Shown here: piece by piece, positions 53,534-63,930 of the stretch
How the letters are laid out: each line of letters starts with the position of its first letter
Numbering within the stretch: the stretch's first letter is position 1
Assembly: GCF_000243115.2 (NCBI RefSeq)
Contig: NZ_CP007035.1
Location: 248,001-312,000, forward strand
Origin: Niabella soli DSM 19437
Lineage (GTDB): Bacteria; Bacteroidota; Bacteroidia; Chitinophagales; Chitinophagaceae
Direction: 5' to 3'
DNA length: 64,000 nucleotides
Translations under genes and position numbers: made by a program
Notes under the pieces: generated by a model
What the model saw: the letters and a program-made list of their open reading frames with translations, nothing else
Told to the model about the DNA's origin: nothing
Databases searched by the model: none

Positions 53534-53611
53534 AAAACAAAAATGCCCCGCAGATAGGCGAGGCGCTAAATGTTTTCACAACGGAATAATCCTTATTGTG
53601 AATTGCTTTCA
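53534..53611 (-). ncRNA. tracrRNA of the type II-C system
   Basis: Minus-strand unit. The anti-repeat TGAAAGCAATTCACAA (53596-53611) is perfectly complementary to the first part of the array repeat read on the minus strand. It is followed by TAAGGATTATTCCG and a Bacteroidota-type tail, ending in a hairpin (GCCTCGC with GCGGGGC, one G-U) and a T run at 53534-53543. The anti-repeat-ACAAUAAGG order resembles known II-C tracrRNAs (Neisseria, from memory). An exact promoter lies directly upstream, so the RNA should start at the anti-repeat and be about 78 nt. The internal TTCACAA/TTGTGAA pairing may compete with the anti-repeat duplex. Confidence 0.88.
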
Positions 53612-53614
53612 GGG

Positions 53615-53644
53615 CAAATATAGCATAATTCGTATTTGATCAAA
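53615..53644 (-). promoter_or_regulatory. Promoter of the tracrRNA
   Basis: On the minus strand: TTTG (53641-53644), an 18-nt spacer, then TATATTTG (53615-53622). Both boxes match the Bacteroidota consensus. The start site would fall 4-8 nt downstream, at the first bases of the anti-repeat. Confidence 0.8.
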
Positions 53645-53787: not shown

Positions 53788-53863
53788 AAAAACGGGGTTG
53801 GTAATGAAGCAATTCACAACACACCACTCACAAAATGACGAAGGAATGGTATCTACCAACCCC
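53788..53863 (-). ncRNA. Candidate crRNA-like regulatory RNA with a degenerate repeat tag
   Basis: Minus-strand unit of about 76 nt. It starts with GGGGTTGGTA (53854-53863) and ends with the exact complement TACCAACCCC (53794-53803) followed by GTTTTT, a terminator-like closing stem. Inside lie about 30 nt of spacer-like sequence (53821-53850) and then GTTGTGAATTGCTTCA (53805-53820), which is the 5' tag of the repeat with one base missing and would pair with the tracrRNA anti-repeat (16 bp with one bulge). The last 10 nt of the spacer-like part, TGAGTGGTGT, recur at 53892-53901, upstream of cas9. An exact -7 box precedes it. Function (autoregulation) is inferred. Confidence 0.6.
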
Positions 53864-53867
53864 AAAG

Positions 53868-53875
53868 CAAAGATA
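53868..53875 (-). promoter_or_regulatory. TAnnTTTG -7 box for the crRNA-like RNA
   Basis: Minus strand reads TATCTTTG, exact consensus, 4 bp before the GGGG that begins the stem. A -33 TTTG at the usual distance is missing; the -33 region overlaps the seed-matching site at 53892-53901. Confidence 0.5.
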
Positions 53876-53891
53876 AGTTTTTTACAAAGAT

Positions 53892-53901
53892 TGAGTGGTG
53901 T
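53892..53901 (+). promoter_or_regulatory. Possible self-target site upstream of cas9
   Basis: TGAGTGGTGT equals the PAM-proximal 10 nt of the spacer-like part of the crRNA-like RNA. It lies 50 bp before the cas9 start, in a region that must hold the cas9 promoter (a near-consensus TATATTTA box is at 53925-53932). The flank on the 3' side is GAGTTCTT. The PAM of this Cas9 is not known to me. Confidence 0.45.
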
Positions 53902-53950
53902 GAGTTCTTATAAATAATTTTTCGTATATTTATTTGAAAAATAACGAATT

Positions 53951-56900
53951 ATGCCGCGAAAAAATATACTAGGCCTAGATCTTGGCACCACTTCCATCGG
54001 CTTTGCCAAAATAATTGAGGATGATGATTATCAGTGCTCTTCTGTTGAGTTGATCGGTGTACGTGTAAATCCCTTGACCACGGATGAACAAACTAATTTT
54101 GAGAAAGGGAAACCGGTATCTGTAAATGCTGATAGAACACTCAAAAGAGGAATGCGCCGCAATCTGGACCGTTACCAGCTGCGGAGGGATTATTTAATTG
54201 AGATACTGAGAACGCACCATATTATTACTGCGGATACAAAACTTGCTGAGGACGGCAAAAATACCACACATACTACTTATGCTTTAAGAGCATTGGCTGC
54301 TACCGCGGAAATTCCATTGGAGGCTTTTGTCCGGGTCCTTTTGGCTATTAATAAAAAACGAGGCTACAAAAGCAGCCGGAAAGCTAAGAATGAAGATGAG
54401 GGTCAACTGATTGACGGGATGGCGATAGCCAGAAGGCTGTATGAAGAAAGCCTGACTCCTGGACAATTTTCTTATCAGTTATTGAAAGAGGGCAAAAAAT
54501 ACCTGCCCGATTTTTACCGGTCCGATTTAAATACAGAATTGAATAAGGTATGGAATTTTCAAAAACAATTTTACCCGGAGATATTGACCGATGAATTTAA
54601 AAGGCACCTGGAGGGAAAAGGCCAGCGGGCTACAGCAGTGGCATTTTGGGGGCAACATGGATTTAGCATGGCGGAAAATAAAGGGAGCAGGGAGGAGAAG
54701 AAACTGCATGCCTATAAATGGCGCAGCGAAGCGGCACATAAACAACTAACAAAAGAGGAAGTGGCGTTTGTGATTACTGAGATCAATAACGATCTTAATA
54801 AATCCAGCGGCTACTTAGGTGCCATTTCTGACAGAAGCAAGGAATTGTTTTTTAATAAGCAAACGGTTGGCCAGTATTTACACCAACAGCTGAAAGAAAA
54901 CCCGCACACACGTTTGAAAGGACAGGTTTTTTACCGTCAGGATTACCTGGATGAGTTTGAAACAATTTGGGAAATGCAGGCAAAATTCTATTCGGCGTTA
55001 ACCCTTGAACTGAAAGAAGAAGTTCGAGATGTCGTTATTTTTTATCAGCGAAAACTGAAATCACAAATGGGATTGATCAGCCTCTGTGAATTTGAGAGTA
55101 AGGAAATTGAGATTGAAAAGAACGGGGAAAAGGCAAAGAAGCGGATAGGCTTACGGGTTGCTCCTAAATCATCGCCGTTGTTCCAGGAGTTTAAAATATG
55201 GCAGGTATTGAATAATCTGGAGTTTCGTAATAAAAAGACCAAAGAAGTGTTTGTTCCGGAGATGGCCGCTAAACAGCAATTGTTTGATGAGCTTAATATT
55301 AAAGGGAATCTGTTGGCGAGTGAAGCTATAAAAATTCTGGGTTATAAAACAAAGGATTGGGAAGCTAATTATCATACATTGGAAGGGAATCGAACCAATA
55401 AATCTTTATATGATGCCTGGCTTAAAATTTTAGAGTTAGAGGGTTATGATGAAAATTTGTTGAAGCTAAGCGGTAGCGATGATATTGATGTCTCCAAAAT
55501 TGAGAAGCCCGCGTTGGAAATCAGACAAATGGTGCTTGCTGTTTTTGAGGTTTTGGGTATTAGTGGCGCAATTTTGGATTTTGATGCAGAAGCAGATGGA
55601 AAAGCATTTGAACAACAGCCTGCATATCAGTTGTGGCATTTGCTGTATTCTGCGGAAGATGATGGTAAAAAATATTCACAGGAAGATATATTTACATATG
55701 GGCACGACAATATTGGATTAAAGAAGAAGCTGTGTGAAAAATTTGGTTTCAGGCCGGAGCATACGAAGATTTTAGTGAATGTTGTTTTCAGCGATGATTA
55801 TGGTAACCTGAGCAGCAAAGCTATGCGAAGAATTTATCCGTTTATCAAAGAGCTTACTTATGACAAAGCCTGTGCAGAAGCAGGGTACAGGCATTCGGCG
55901 GCTTCGCTCACGAAAGAAGAGATAGCGGCCCGGCCTTTACAAAATCGGTTGGATTTGTTAAAGAAGAATGAATTGCGCAGCCCTGTGGTAGAAAAAATCC
56001 TTAACCAAATGGTTAATGTTGTCAATACCCTGGTTGACGATGAAAACCAAAATCGAAAAGCCCGGGGATTATCTGAAGATTTTCATTTTGATGAAATAAG
56101 GATTGAACTGGCTCGTGAATTGAAAAAAAATGCTAAGGAACGTGCGGAGATGACAACAAATATCAACACTGCAAAACAATCACATGAAAAAATAATCAGA
56201 ATCCTGCAAACGGAATTTGGTGTGCCCAATCCTTCCCGGAACGATATTGTCCGCTACAAACTATATGAAGAGCTGAAGAATAACGGCTACAAAGATTTAT
56301 ATACCAATACCTATATTTCTCGTGACATCTTGTTCAGCAAGCAGATAGATGTTGATCATATTATTCCACAAATGAGCTTGTTTGATGATAGTTTCTCTAA
56401 TAAAACGGTGGTGTTCAGGAAAGATAACCAGGATAAGGGAAATAAAACCGCCTATGATTATATTCTTGGTAAATATGGAGAACAAGCATTGGAAGAATAT
56501 ATTTCCCGGATAACCAGCCTTTTTGAATTGGGAAAGAAAAATAAGGAAGAGGGCATTGGTAAGGCAAAGTTCCAAAAATTGCAGAAGCGCCTTGTTGATA
56601 TTGGTGACGGCTTTATAGAAAGAGATCTTCGGGAGAGCCAATACATAGCAAAAAAAGCAAATAATATGCTTTATGCTATATGTCGCAGTGTGGTTTCCAC
56701 CAGCGGCGAAATTACGGCAAGGTTGCGGGAGGACTGGGATTTGGTAAACGTAATGCAGGAAATTAACCTGCCAAAATTCAGGGCATTGGGTCTCACGGAA
56801 ATGGTTGAGAAAAAAGATGGCGCTCAAAAAGAGCGTATCACTGACTGGACCAAGCGTAATGATCATCGTCATCACGCGATGGATGCTTTGGCCATAGCGT

Positions 56901-58231
56901 TTACTCGCCATAGCCACATTCAATATCTGAATCACCTGAACGCTCGTAAAGATGAGGCAAACAAGTGGCACCCTGTCGTTAGCAAGATTGAGGAAAAAGA
57001 AACGGTTCTTATTTATGATGATCTCGGCAATCGGAAAAGGAAATTCAAAGCTCCTATGCCCAACTTTCGCGAAGTGGTAAAAGAGCACCTGGAAAATGTG
57101 CTGATTTCTCATAAAGCCAAGAATAAGGTCGTTACAAAGAATAAAAATAAAATAAAGACAGTCAGAGGTGAAAAGGTAAAAACAGAGCTTACGCCGCGCG
57201 GACAACTGCATAAAGAAACGATTTATGGTAGGTATCGTTATTATGAAAGCAAAGAGGAAAAAATAGGGCCGAAATTTGATGCGGAAATGATAGGAATGGT
57301 TACGAATCCCCAATATAAAAAACTTCTGTTGGAGCGACTTGCAGCAAATGGAAACGATCCTAAAAAGGCTTTCTGGGGTAAAAATGCGTTGAACAAGAAT
57401 CCTCTTTACGTTGATGAGGCCAGGCAAGAGCTTTTGCCTGAAAAAATTTTATTGCGCTGGCTAAACGATGATTATTCCATTCGCAAAGACGTAACGCCTG
57501 AAAATCTGAAAGATATAAAAACCATTGAAAAAATTTTAGATAAGGGAGTAAAGAAAATATTGTTGAAGCGCCTCGCCGACTTTGGCAATGACCCCAAGAA
57601 AGCTTTTTCCGATTTGGATAAAAATCCTATCTGGCAGAATGAGGCTAAACGAATTGCAATAAAACGGGTTACTATCAGTGGTATTAAAAATGCGGCGCCA
57701 TTACATCATAAGAAAGATCATCTTGGTAATGATATTTTAGACGAAAAAGGAAAGCAGATACCGAGCTCTTTTGTAAGTACCGGTAATAATCATCATGTAG
57801 CTATTTACCGTGATGCAGAAGGAAATCTACAGGAAAGAGTCGTTTCCTTGTTTGATGCCGTGCAATTAGTAAATGGTGGTGAACCGGTAATTGATAAGGA
57901 GTATAACAAAGGAATAGGTTGGCAGTTTCTGTTCACAATGAAGCAGAATGAGATGTTCGTTTTTCCTGATGAAAAAACAGGATTTAATCCCCGGGAGGTT
58001 GATTTGTTAAGTTCTGGGAATAGAAAGTTGATTAGTCCTAACTTATTCAGAGTACAGAAGTTGGCTAGTAAAAATTATTTTTTTCGGCATCATTTGGAAA
58101 CTAGTGTTGAAGAAAAGAAAGAGCTAAAGAATATCGCATATAAACCTCAATTGGGGCTTAATGCTCTAAGTAATATTGTTAAAGTTCGAATTAATCATAT
58201 AGGTGAAATAGTAAGCGTAGGTGAATATTAA
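53951..58231 (+). CDS. cas9: Type II-C Cas9 endonuclease
   Basis: A 1426-residue RNA-guided DNA endonuclease, the usual size for the large Bacteroidota II-C group. RuvC-I ILGLDLGTTSIGFA with Asp10, an Arg-rich bridge helix (RTLKRGMRRNLDRYQLRRDY, about 62-81), RuvC-II IRIELAREL with Glu719, HNH IDVDHIIPQ with His803 followed by the Asn pair (SNKTV, DKGNKT), and RuvC-III DHRHHAMDALAIAF with His975 and Asp978. All catalytic residues are present, so it should cleave both strands. The C-terminal 400 residues should contact the PAM. cas1 and cas2 follow and no csn2 or cas4 is seen, hence II-C. The next gene follows after 9 bp. Confidence 0.98.
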   Translation: MPRKNILGLDLGTTSIGFAKIIEDDDYQCSSVELIGVRVNPLTTDEQTNFEKGKPVSVNADRTLKRGMRRNLDRYQLRRDYLIEILRTHHIITADTKLAEDGKNTTHTTYALRALAATAEIPLEAFVRVLLAINKKRGYKSSRKAKNEDEGQLIDGMAIARRLYEESLTPGQFSYQLLKEGKKYLPDFYRSDLNTELNKVWNFQKQFYPEILTDEFKRHLEGKGQRATAVAFWGQHGFSMAENKGSREEKKLHAYKWRSEAAHKQLTKEEVAFVITEINNDLNKSSGYLGAISDRSKELFFNKQTVGQYLHQQLKENPHTRLKGQVFYRQDYLDEFETIWEMQAKFYSALTLELKEEVRDVVIFYQRKLKSQMGLISLCEFESKEIEIEKNGEKAKKRIGLRVAPKSSPLFQEFKIWQVLNNLEFRNKKTKEVFVPEMAAKQQLFDELNIKGNLLASEAIKILGYKTKDWEANYHTLEGNRTNKSLYDAWLKILELEGYDENLLKLSGSDDIDVSKIEKPALEIRQMVLAVFEVLGISGAILDFDAEADGKAFEQQPAYQLWHLLYSAEDDGKKYSQEDIFTYGHDNIGLKKKLCEKFGFRPEHTKILVNVVFSDDYGNLSSKAMRRIYPFIKELTYDKACAEAGYRHSAASLTKEEIAARPLQNRLDLLKKNELRSPVVEKILNQMVNVVNTLVDDENQNRKARGLSEDFHFDEIRIELARELKKNAKERAEMTTNINTAKQSHEKIIRILQTEFGVPNPSRNDIVRYKLYEELKNNGYKDLYTNTYISRDILFSKQIDVDHIIPQMSLFDDSFSNKTVVFRKDNQDKGNKTAYDYILGKYGEQALEEYISRITSLFELGKKNKEEGIGKAKFQKLQKRLVDIGDGFIERDLRESQYIAKKANNMLYAICRSVVSTSGEITARLREDWDLVNVMQEINLPKFRALGLTEMVEKKDGAQKERITDWTKRNDHRHHAMDALAIAFTRHSHIQYLNHLNARKDEANKWHPVVSKIEEKETVLIYDDLGNRKRKFKAPMPNFREVVKEHLENVLISHKAKNKVVTKNKNKIKTVRGEKVKTELTPRGQLHKETIYGRYRYYESKEEKIGPKFDAEMIGMVTNPQYKKLLLERLAANGNDPKKAFWGKNALNKNPLYVDEARQELLPEKILLRWLNDDYSIRKDVTPENLKDIKTIEKILDKGVKKILLKRLADFGNDPKKAFSDLDKNPIWQNEAKRIAIKRVTISGIKNAAPLHHKKDHLGNDILDEKGKQIPSSFVSTGNNHHVAIYRDAEGNLQERVVSLFDAVQLVNGGEPVIDKEYNKGIGWQFLFTMKQNEMFVFPDEKTGFNPREVDLLSSGNRKLISPNLFRVQKLASKNYFFRHHLETSVEEKKELKNIAYKPQLGLNALSNIVKVRINHIGEIVSVGEY

Positions 58232-58240
58232 AAGCAAAAG

Positions 58241-58842
58241 GTGCTCAATTTTAAAACATATTATCATATTTATAACCACGCCAATGGCGATGATAACCTG
58301 TTTCGGGAGAAGGAGAATTATAATTTCTTTTTAAAGAAATATCATCAGCATATCGATCCCATCGCCGAAACCATCGCCTGGTGCCTGCTGCCGAACCATT
58401 TTCATTTGCTTGTAAAGATAAAAAGCGAGGAAGCGATAGCCGAAACTCATCCAAAGTTTCAAACTTTGGATGAGTTTGAAGCCCGGACCGCTTTTTTAAG
58501 TAAACAATTCGCTAATTTCTTCAGTAGCTATACGCAGGCGTTTAATAAAGTTTACAAACGACGGGGTTCTTTATTTATAAAGAATTTTAAAAGAAAAGAG
58601 GTGTTGGATGACGATTATTTACGTAATCTGATATTATATATCCATCTCAATCCTGCTAAGCATGGATTTAAAAAAGAGATTGACGAATGGCCCTGGACAT
58701 CCTGGAACATGTTTCCAAACGAATACTCTCAATTGGCAAAAGAGCTGTTTGGTGACCTGGAACAATATAACCGGGCACATAAAAATAAACAAACAGATTT
58801 TGAAGAATATGTGAAATTGGAGAATGATTTAATACAGAGTAC

Positions 58843-58846
<4 letters not shown>
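58241..58846 (+). CDS. HUH (Y1) transposase of RAYT type inside the cas operon
   Basis: A 201-residue protein read from a GTG at 58241, 9 bp after cas9. LLPNHFHLLVKI holds the HUH motif (His53, His55) and Tyr133 in LRNLILYIHLNPAKHGF is the expected nucleophile, the pattern of REP-associated tyrosine transposases. Its stop overlaps the cas1 ATG by 4 bp, so translation is coupled to cas1. No inverted ends, REP array or footprint of a recent insertion is seen around it. A 35-nt palindrome lies inside the frame (residues about 68-79). The frame is intact, and family residues are kept, so it may still cleave single-strand DNA. Whether it serves CRISPR or is a passenger is unknown. Confidence 0.9.
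58443..58477. repeat. 35-nt perfect palindrome inside the RAYT-like gene
   Basis: AAACTCATCCAAAGTTT (58443-58459), one C, and the exact reverse complement (58461-58477). A 17-bp stem with a single-base centre, in frame in the transposase gene. Confidence 0.95.
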
Positions 58847-61046: not shown

Positions 61047-63930
61047 GTTGTCAAAGACCAAAGTTAATTCGAAAATTGAAAGCAATTCACAACATCAAAT
61101 ACCTGGTCAACTACTTTTCTTAGTTGTCAAAGACCAAAGTTAATTCGAAAATTGAAAGCAATTCACAACAAAGCCTAAAGGCATAAAAATCCAGCGGAAG
61201 TTGTCAAAGACCAAAGTTAATTCGAAAATTGAAAGCAATTCACAACAATAAGACATAGCGGCCAAAAAGCGCCATGAGTTGTCAAAGACCAAAGTTAATT
61301 CGAAAATTGAAAGCAATTCACAACGCACCTGTTGCACCCGATGCGTTGTACCGCGTTGTCAAAGACCAAAGTTAATTCGAAAATTGAAAGCAATTCACAA
61401 CGGTAGGATTCTCTTTGCCCCATGTTCTTAGTTGTCAAAGACCAAAGTTAATTCGAAAATTGAAAGCAATTCACAACTATTTTTGATGTAAATATTTACA
61501 GAAACAAGTTGTCAAAGACCAAAGTTAATTCGAAAATTGAAAGCAATTCACAACTTCCACCATCGATTAATCCCACCTGCCTATGTTGTCAAAGACCAAA
61601 GTTAATTCGAAAATTGAAAGCAATTCACAACAGCCAGTAGTGTTTTGCCACTCGGTATAGTGTTGTCAAAGACCAAAGTTAATTCGAAAATTGAAAGCAA
61701 TTCACAACTCAGGACCCGGCGGTCAGCCCGCGATGGCAGTTGTCAAAGACCAAAGTTAATTCGAAAATTGAAAGCAATTCACAACGCCCCGAATGCGGGT
61801 CCATTGAGGAGGCTGGTTGTCAAAGACCAAAGTTAATTCGAAAATTGAAAGCAATTCACAACCCCAACAGCATGGAACCGATGGATTAAACGTTGTCAAA
61901 GACCAAAGTTAATTCGAAAATTGAAAGCAATTCACAACCCGGAGACCGAAGGTATGGCCTTTCCTTGGTTGTCAAAGACCAAAGTTAATTCGAAAATTGA
62001 AAGCAATTCACAACCGGTGGTGCCGGTCTTATTGGTGGTACCATGTTGTCAAAGACCAAAGTTAATTCGAAAATTGAAAGCAATTCACAACTTCTCAGCC
62101 TTGGCTTCCCGGATTTCCTTTGTTGTCAAAGACCAAAGTTAATTCGAAAATTGAAAGCAATTCACAACGGTTGACATGGCTAAGTGTTTGACTCCTTTGT
62201 TGTCAAAGACCAAAGTTAATTCGAAAATTGAAAGCAATTCACAACCACAGAGTATAAATCTGTTCCTTCGAGTACGTTGTCAAAGACCAAAGTTAATTCG
62301 AAAATTGAAAGCAATTCACAACTTTATTAGTTCGTTATCGTCAATTTTGTTGTTGTCAAAGACCAAAGTTAATTCGAAAATTGAAAGCAATTCACAACTA
62401 CTGAGTATAAGTCTGTTCCTTCAAGTACGTTGTCAAAGACCAAAGTTAATTCGAAAATTGAAAGCAATTCACAACGTGCTGCATAGCTGGCCGGGTTACC
62501 CATCGTTGTCAAAGACCAAAGTTAATTCGAAAATTGAAAGCAATTCACAACGCAGCCTTCGGAATCATGAACGGGTTAACGTTGTCAAAGACCAAAGTTA
62601 ATTCGAAAATTGAAAGCAATTCACAACGCCGCCGCCCGCCGGACCACTTCATTCGGTGTTGTCAAAGACCAAAGTTAATTCGAAAATTGAAAGCAATTCA
62701 CAACAGAGTCAACGAAGGTGCCGTCATCGATGTAGTTGTCAAAGACCAAAGTTAATTCGAAAATTGAAAGCAATTCACAACAAGCGGCTTTAAATTTTGC
62801 AAGAGATTTTTGTTGTCAAAGACCAAAGTTAATTCGAAAATTGAAAGCAATTCACAACTGTCTGTATGTAATGCAACCACTTTTTCTGTTGTCAAAGACC
62901 AAAGTTAATTCGAAAATTGAAAGCAATTCACAACTGAAGGCTCTTTATGTTCAGCACGGCAGCGGTTGTCAAAGACCAAAGTTAATTCGAAAATTGAAAG
63001 CAATTCACAACAAAGTTGATGCGGCTCCTGTGGCTCACTCTGTTGTCAAAGACCAAAGTTAATTCGAAAATTGAAAGCAATTCACAACAGGCAGACAAAA
63101 GGGATAATATACGGCAACGTTGTCAAAGACCAAAGTTAATTCGAAAATTGAAAGCAATTCACAACAGAGAAGGATAAGGTTACTCGTGCCACGGTTGTCA
63201 AAGACCAAAGTTAATTCGAAAATTGAAAGCAATTCACAACCGCCCCGGCCGATATGGCATCAAAGGTTGTGTTGTCAAAGACCAAAGTTAATTCGAAAAT
63301 TGAAAGCAATTCACAACTCTTATGTTAACATCTATTCTATTCCTCCAGTTGTCAAAGACCAAAGTTAATTCGAAAATTGAAAGCAATTCACAACTGAAAT
63401 GATTCAATAGCATCCGCTTCGGCTGTTGTCAAAGACCAAAGTTAATTCGAAAATTGAAAGCAATTCACAACGGATACGAGTAATATAGTTCCTGGTACGC
63501 TGTTGTCAAAGACCAAAGTTAATTCGAAAATTGAAAGCAATTCACAACTGAATTGCAGGAGTTGTTGGACAAGCGTGCGTTGTCAAAGACCAAAGTTAAT
63601 TCGAAAATTGAAAGCAATTCACAACATACCGTTTTACTTCCTTGTTTTCGGTAAGGTTGTCAAAGACCAAAGTTAATTCGAAAATTGAAAGCAATTCACA
63701 ACCTAAATGATCCAGACACTACATAAGAACTAGTTGTCAAAGACCAAAGTTAATTCGAAAATTGAAAGCAATTCACAACCTAAATGATCCAGACACTACA
63801 TAAGAACTAGTTGTCAAAGACCAAAGTTAATTCGAAAATTGAAAGCAATTCACAACTAGCTGTCGTGAGCATGGTGTTATTATGGGTGTTGTCAAAGACC
63901 AAAGTTAATTCGAAAATTGAAAGCAATTCA
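61047..63930 (-). CRISPR. Type II-C CRISPR array, 38 repeats and 37 spacers
   Basis: Repeat of 47 nt, on the plus strand GTTGTCAAAGACC...AAAGCAATTCACAAC, first copy 61047-61093, last 63888-63930. All copies look identical except the last, in which the final CAAC is lost. Spacers are 28-31 nt, mostly 30. Orientation is given as minus because the tracrRNA anti-repeat pairs with the repeat read on that strand, and because every repeat carries TAACTTTG (an exact -7 box) on the minus strand at repeat bases 13-20, placing starts 5-9 nt before each spacer. Two spacers (63703-63732, 63780-63809) are identical and two (62246-62275, 62399-62428) match at 26 of 30 positions. Confidence 0.98.

Follow-up and report, generated by a model that had tools for sequence, protein, structure and literature searches.

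The type II-C CRISPR-Cas9 locus of Niabella soli DSM 19437 raises the question of what is done by a short crRNA-like unit that lies between tracrRNA and cas9, and whose guide ends in ten nucleotides that occur again just ahead of cas9. The locus was analyzed within a window of 64,000 nucleotides (NZ_CP007035.1, positions 248,001 to 312,000), from a genome available as one contig of 4.7 Mb. The anatomy of the unit, the co-varying seed and target, the fit of the flank to the PAM, the place relative to promoter boxes and the recurrence in relatives were all read from sequence. On these grounds, the unit is very probably a dedicated crRNA-like regulatory RNA of the type II-C system that autorepresses cas9 and itself, an interpretation supported by the co-variation of seed and target and by the PAM fit.

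Anatomy of the unit and of its locus

The locus comprised a minus-strand tracrRNA and the crRNA-like unit, followed by cas9, a 201-aa ORF, two genes that we take to be cas1 and cas2 from their sequence and place, a gene with a HIRAN domain, and the array (Table 1). The 201-aa ORF, located between cas9 and cas1, had no Pfam match; its PNHFHLL motif presumably resembles that of HUH transposases of the IS200/REP kind, and a similar ORF also adjoins cas9 in N. drilacis.

On the minus strand, the box TATCTTTG, a perfect instance of TANNTTTG, which we take to be the Bacteroidota -7 motif, was followed after a gap of 4 nt by the unit, which opened with GGGGTTGGTA, perfectly paired over 10 bp with TACCAACCCC, and ended in GTTTTT. 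Enclosed by these arms, a spacer-like guide of 33 nt was followed by the tag GTTGTGAATTGCTTCA, identical at 14 positions to the first 16 nt of the array repeat (GTTGTGAATTGCTTTC) and with a predicted pairing energy of -19.6 kcal/mol with the tracrRNA anti-repeat (-24.5 kcal/mol for a longer portion of that repeat). A preliminary description of this DNA had proposed the box, the 4-bp gap, the 76-nt unit, the 10-bp stem and the T run, together with about 30 spacer-like nucleotides and a repeat tag that can pair with the tracrRNA, and all of these were recovered. No upstream copy of the repeat was seen in the unit, which had a 3' tag only, so that there is no spacer between two repeats as in a mini-array. 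The unit and the array are separated by ~7 kb, and the unit has a promoter box and a terminator to itself. An Rfam scan of the window region resulted in no match above the gathering scores. The window array repeat itself includes TAACTTTG, a TANNTTTG box, and arrays of II-C systems are reported to carry their own promoter in each repeat (PMC12080349). The boxes assigned to the unit and to cas9 are consensus matches only, and hence predicted.

The last 10 nt of the guide (TGAGTGGTGT) reappear 49 nt ahead of the cas9 ATG, as the preliminary description had also noticed, at a site situated between the divergent promoters of the unit and cas9. A Cas9 complex on this target would overlay the upstream part of both promoters. 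From this arrangement we infer a homeostatic loop in which the unit RNA would be transcribed from its own promoter, pair through its repeat tag with the tracrRNA, and be loaded on Cas9. The 10-nt PAM-proximal seed would then direct the complex to the site between the promoters, where Cas9 is proposed to bind without cutting because the match is of only 10 nt, and would block transcription of both cas9 and the unit RNA. Repression would ease when Cas9 is taken up by crRNAs or anti-CRISPRs.

Table 1. Features of the window and of related loci, with sequence elements of the five loci of the same layout
Feature	Locus	Position	Strand	Remarks
tracrRNA	window	53540..53615, ends approximate	-	anti-repeat 53610-53595, terminator near 53540
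Putative crRNA-like regulatory RNA unit, 76 nt	window	53788..53863	-	stem arms 53854-53863 and 53794-53803, T run
Degenerate repeat 5' tag GTTGTGAATTGCTTCA	window	53805..53820	-	can pair with tracrRNA anti-repeat
Spacer-like guide, 33 nt	window	53821..53853	-	seed 53821-53830, TGAGTGGTGT on minus strand
Predicted -7 box TATCTTTG of the unit's own promoter	window	53868..53875	-	perfect TANNTTTG, from sequence; 16 nt from target
Seed target TGAGTGGTGT (protospacer strand)	window	53892..53901	+	between divergent promoters of unit and cas9
PAM flank GAGTTCTT	window	53902..53909	+	TT at positions 4-5; fits protospacer flanks
Predicted cas9 -7 box TATATTTA	window	53925..53932	+	23 nt past target
cas9, 1426 aa	window	53951..58231	+	motifs LDLGTTS and DHIIPQ, presumed catalytic
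201-aa ORF	window	58241-58846
CRISPR array as parsed, 47-nt repeat	window	61047..63856	crRNA sense -	extends slightly past parsed end
tRNA-like gene	L009	7628-7701		between targeted promoter and unit
tRNA-like gene	L013	7732-7806		between targeted promoter and unit
tRNA-like gene	L027	7745-7819		between targeted promoter and unit
DUF3800 gene beside unit	L024	6883-7617
DUF3800 gene beside unit	L146	7427-8161
DUF3800 gene beside unit	L214	3624-4358
NYN gene beside unit	L137	12441-13049
Unit beside distant Cas9 type	L134	6567	-	flanks of both units AWGTCC
Unit beside distant Cas9 type	L216	6443	-	flanks of both units AWGTCC
Second tracrRNA-like copy	L041	7315	-
Phage CRISPR-like element	L133 (OR089151.1)	1330-1760
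Phage CRISPR-like element	L194 (HQ396194.1)	1880-2200
Single ectopic repeat	L206	G131:C1:3060507
Single ectopic repeat		G008:C1:435523
Single ectopic repeat		G002:C7:22897
Seeds	window, L008, L146, L214, L019			TGAGTGGTGT, TGAGTAGTAT, AGATTAGTAT, ATATTAGTAT, AGATTATAGT
Target flanks	window, L008, L146, L214, L019			GAGTTC, GGGTTC, GAGTTT, GAGTTT, GAGTTT
cas9-side -7-like boxes	window, L008, L146, L214, L019			TATATTTA, TATATTTG, TATATTTA, TATATTCA, TATATTTG

Co-variation of seed and target, guide hairpin and PAM

The same layout was found in five loci: the window, L008 (N. drilacis), L146/L095, L214 and L019, with Cas9 identities to the window of 87% for L008, ~70% for L146/L095, 66.5% for L214 and ~67% for L019. 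At the level of the C-terminal regions, Cas9 from L137, L008, L024, L146 and L019 was 70-85% identical to that of the window. Guide and target were equal over 10 nt in all five own pairs, and none of the 20 cross-species pairs was perfect. In the orthologous unit of N. drilacis, the seed differed from that of the window (TGAGTAGTAT vs. TGAGTGGTGT), and the promoter site was altered at the same two positions. The seed match is thus kept while its sequence changes, which is the outcome for which the preliminary description had proposed looking in relatives. Position 11 was mismatched in 5/5 loci (guide G, target T), and the repeat tag was predicted to be able to pair with the tracrRNA in every case. 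The target was placed at 23, 23, 25, 23 and 25 nt from the cas9 -7-like box (window, L008, L146, L214 and L019, respectively) and, on the other side, at 16, 14, 8, 8 and 12 nt from the perfect TANNTTTG of the unit.

Arms that are complementary and co-vary between species would also be required of a mere hairpin, in leader RNA or DNA and with no role for Cas9, formed by the inverted repeat 53821-53830 / 53892-53901. The second arm, however, is located upstream of the points where transcription of the unit and of cas9 is predicted to start, so that no transcript of either would hold both arms, and a hairpin does not account for an arm that stops right where the repeat tag begins, for the flanking TT or for the presence of the tag. 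This alternative, which the preliminary description had raised and which the place of the site weakens, is considered most improbable. Reading the two arms as half-sites of a protein operator agrees with a position between two divergent promoters, but half-sites ~60 nt apart would not be expected to change in step between species, and the probability left to such an operator is next to negligible.

In the five same-layout guides, the 5' half can pair with the seed, and only 0 to 7 of 200 mononucleotide shuffles were as stable. Such folds were not general among the remaining units, in which the number of shuffles as stable (out of 200) was 128 for L009, 43 for L216, 39 for L041, 32 for L134 and 20 for L027. 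The outside target of L019 was distinct from the hairpin arm. A change in the L214 seed was considered as hairpin-breaking and rejected, given that the fold re-forms in another register. In an extraneous crRNA of C. jejuni, a guide hairpin was reported to inhibit targeting (PMC12080349), and the seed hairpin is the chief point against strong repression by the unit; it may tune repression or delay loading. The stability of the five folds, and the inhibition of extraneous crRNAs by guide hairpins described in that source, would suit a remnant or extraneous crRNA silenced by its own hairpin, with the promoter match as a by-product of an arm duplicated from the promoter region. Such an origin is very unlikely for a unit that lies ~7 kb from the array and carries its own promoter box and terminator; moreover, guide-target identity was exact in 5/5 loci whereas the hairpin contained G-U pairs or a bulge in 4/5, so that the match to promoter DNA seems to be the tighter constraint.

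The flank of the target pointed in the same direction as autorepression through Cas9. A spacer from genome G008 (Cas9 89%) matched protospacers in two other congeneric genomes, at 29/30 and 27/30 positions and with flanks CAATTAATG and TTATTAAGG, respectively; the 29/30 stretch was present also in an IMG/VR viral contig. Two spacers from G367, the host of L146, matched at 29/30 in its own genome (CATTTTTTT) and at 27/30 in a relative (GATTTTTTC). TT was found at flank positions 4-5 in all four protospacers with up to 3 mismatches (background TT frequency of 0.122), a basis of three spacers and four protospacers in which the two from G008 are homologous genes and not independent. All five same-layout targets carried TT as well, and the window flank, whose comparison with the PAM had been suggested in the preliminary description, fits this pattern. 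Among units with the window-type Cas9 family, TT at 4-5 was present in 10 of 15 (some of these sites having been picked after the fact; the exceptions were L013, L027, L032, L041 and L086), compared with 2 of the 20 matches that array spacers made by chance (p = 7e-4).

Searches of the arrays from the window, L013, L011, L146, L051 and L015 against phages yielded no usable protospacer, only phage-borne repeats and short weak matches, and the window array against plasmids likewise gave repeats or short weak matches and no usable protospacer. Six spacer patterns searched in viral contigs resulted in one match, to the same prophage stretch as L201, and the matches listed for the window array against 294 family genomes consisted of arrays and single repeats. 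When weak matches in genus genomes were re-read (15 stretches, spacers of six parsed arrays, up to 8 mismatches), one match was found beyond the four protospacers. It joined a window spacer to a site in the genome of the window with 7 mismatches and the flank GCTATACCG, which lacks TT; being at chance level, it was not counted. L212, considered as a protospacer, turned out to contain no spacer match. For the second Cas9 type (L134/L216), no protospacer was found. Single ectopic CRISPR repeats located off the arrays were observed in related genomes (Table 1). In addition, Riemerella phages RAP44 and CRP19 and about ten other records carried a short CRISPR-like element (partial repeat, spacer, host-type repeat and terminator), with additional spacer-repeat copies in CRP19; the element may be an RNA anti-CRISPR or else a mini-array of the phage.

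Chance level, wider family and neighbouring genes

The probability of the seed match had been put at about 2 in 10,000 in the preliminary description, a value that proved too optimistic in view of controls based on array spacers and sliding anchors. In the 250 nt upstream of cas9, 5 of 1596 array spacers from comparable AT-rich loci had an anchored match of at least 10 nt (three register shifts, both strands); in the 1 kb upstream, 20 of 1580 did. A strict null, in which the anchor slides over the same stretch of 1.5 kb, gave p = 0.019 for the window by itself. Taken singly, the window locus is only suggestive of a seed-target relation, which is made convincing by the comparative data.

A scan of 140 non-redundant cas9-upstream regions, 119 of them with a tracrRNA core at up to 4 mismatches, resulted in 19 tag matches. 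Not taken as units were the matches in L022 (the tracrRNA itself), in L146 on the plus strand at 1012, in L061 (a low-complexity direct repeat), and in L066 and one of the two from L190, both followed by a degenerate full repeat. With one L190 row left out, 18 rows were tested for a nearby match, and 7 of them had one of at least 10 nt outside their own RNA, vs. the 20/1580 array spacers (p = 5e-9, which is indicative only, as the rows are related by descent). The count of seven was used because, among ten rows reaching at least 10 nt, L061 was discarded as spurious, and L009 and L013 had the internal hairpin arm as their longest match. Strict p values per unit were poor for L137 (0.26), L086 (0.35), L032 (0.15), L041 (0.11) and L019 (0.11), and the outside sites of L009, L024 and L013 (8-9 nt) were chosen after the fact, as lying outside the RNA and upstream of the box. 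Of the 10 units whose outside match reached at least 10 nt, 8 had a perfect TANNTTTG within 50 nt past the target; its background was 3.0% of 40-nt windows (1613/53451).

The resulting family included 17 units (window, L008, L146, L214, L019, L009, L013, L027, L024, L137, L185, L032, L041, L134, L216, L086 and L190), L086 and L190 being weak members with a match of 7-9 nt. Most of the cas9 loci examined were devoid of such a unit, which is therefore not essential to II-C systems. In nearly all of the 17, the target was located upstream of a promoter from which the unit itself would be read; five loci, and perhaps L086 as a sixth, had cas9 next to the target as a second client. The preliminary description had assigned the target to the cas9 promoter, which would hold for these five, perhaps six, loci, and to the unit's own promoter only as a possibility, which turned out to be the common target. 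This distribution would favour a mainly self-limited filler guide that occupies spare Cas9 and tracrRNA, its promoter match holding its own level and the effect on cas9 being secondary. The spacing of 23-25 nt to the cas9 -7-like box, kept in the five same-layout loci, speaks against a filler, which is judged unlikely, and favours the autorepression of both cas9 and the unit.

The genes accompanying the units were diverse, and some units shared the strand of cas9. A tRNA-like gene lay between the targeted promoter and the unit in three hosts (L009, L013 and L027); these tRNA-like genes were assigned by ARAGORN to Ile-TAT (two) and Phe-GAA (one), scored 57.0-60.3 bits with the Rfam tRNA model, and had anticodon stems whose upper pairs look mismatched when read by eye. 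In L024 and L137, the unit was divergent from a DUF3800 gene and an NYN gene, respectively, with the target in between; a DUF3800 gene followed the unit in L146 and L214. In L185, the targeted promoter was followed by an ORF of only 21 aa, counted from its ATG. In L041 (Chryseobacterium oryctis), a second tracrRNA-like copy with a degraded anti-repeat was observed, divergent from the target of the unit. L134 and L216, with a Cas9 only ~25% identical, had 12-nt seeds differing in sequence and flanks AAGTCC and ATGTCC, respectively; the RNA stretch between promoter and guide was partly conserved in these two units. In L134, L135, L136, L140 and L141, from other genomes of the genus, an almost identical repeat went with a strongly divergent Cas9 (~25% identity), and the effector appears to have been exchanged.

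It is conceivable, if somewhat doubtful, that Bacteroidota II-C systems harbor a class of crRNA-like regulators that depend on Cas9, repress themselves and can exchange partners, the partner being either cas9 (homeostasis) or, in Cas9-based addiction or alarm modules similar to CreTA/CrePA, a tRNA-like RNA with a disrupted anticodon stem driven by the repressed promoter, or a DUF3800 or NYN gene facing it. The extension to Cas9-based guard modules is less certain than the II-C autorepressor. If the guard reading were true, a harmful product would be set free once Cas9 is lost or inhibited. Should the tRNA-like and nuclease-like partners be real, CRISPR-guarding modules would extend to Cas9, and the question of why cells keep costly Cas9 systems would become testable in culturable environmental Bacteroidota.

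Relation to known autorepressors and guard modules

Partial guides repressing the genes of Cas9 have already been described in II-A systems (tracr-L), as have crRNA-like autorepressors in type I and V-A. Literature searches on a dedicated crRNA-like autorepressor in II-C gave no such paper among the matches listed, and such elements, according to Shmakov et al. 2023, are reportedly found mostly in type I plus V-A. A separate, tracrRNA-dependent autorepressor in II-C, if true, would demonstrate that this type of control arose as well in the other large branch of Cas9, and the 10-nt seed, the mismatch at position 11 and the seed hairpin would represent natural rules for non-cutting Cas9 binding.

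Among systems in which Cas9 represses without cutting, the F. novicida II-B scaRNA is described as steering catalytically active Cas9 through a degenerate repeat and a partial match of 15 bp to a lipoprotein operon (PMC9458426); the unit is built alike, but matches the cas9 and own promoter region instead. The scaRNA of Neisseria II-C is reported to act after transcription (PMC13431127). The extraneous crRNA of II-C systems, as presented in PMC12080349, similarly has its guide covered by a hairpin, but derives from an extra repeat of the array, unlike the unit, with its own terminator ~7 kb away. With the type I CreTA and CrePA modules (PMC9458426, PMC12737573), the unit would share an ectopic crRNA-like RNA acting at a neighbouring promoter, and some of its relatives have a tRNA-like or nuclease-like neighbour; the effector, in contrast to the accounts given there, would be Cas9, and the neighbour in the window is cas9 and not a toxin-like gene.

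CreR RNAs have been reported from types I-B, I-E and V-A (PMC13131331) and from type I and V-A (PMC12737573). As in these accounts, the unit is a degenerate-repeat, crRNA-like RNA located outside the array at the cas locus and partly complementary to a cas promoter, with a 10-nt match and TT at positions 4-5. It differs from CreR as described there in a single tag with no upstream repeat, in a PAM-proximal seed at the 3' end of the guide, and in its putative effector, Cas9 with tracrRNA instead of type I or V-A, for which reason it is regarded as CreR-like in its working and not filed among the described CreRs.

The closest known system is tracr-L, the natural single guide RNA of S. pyogenes II-A, in which a short partial match is reported to lead to repression of the cas promoter and not to cutting (PMC11417352). 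In that account, the guide belongs to a long isoform of the tracrRNA itself, whereas the unit would be a separate crRNA-like RNA of a II-C system, with a guide ending in a repeat tag and not in an anti-repeat, and with its own promoter also as a target. In an engineered version from the same source, Pcas was repressed by the short tracrRNA together with a crRNA that matches over 11 nt, which is the arrangement that we infer for the unit. The unit is best read as a type II-C counterpart of CreR and tracr-L autorepression, perhaps with CreTA-like branches.
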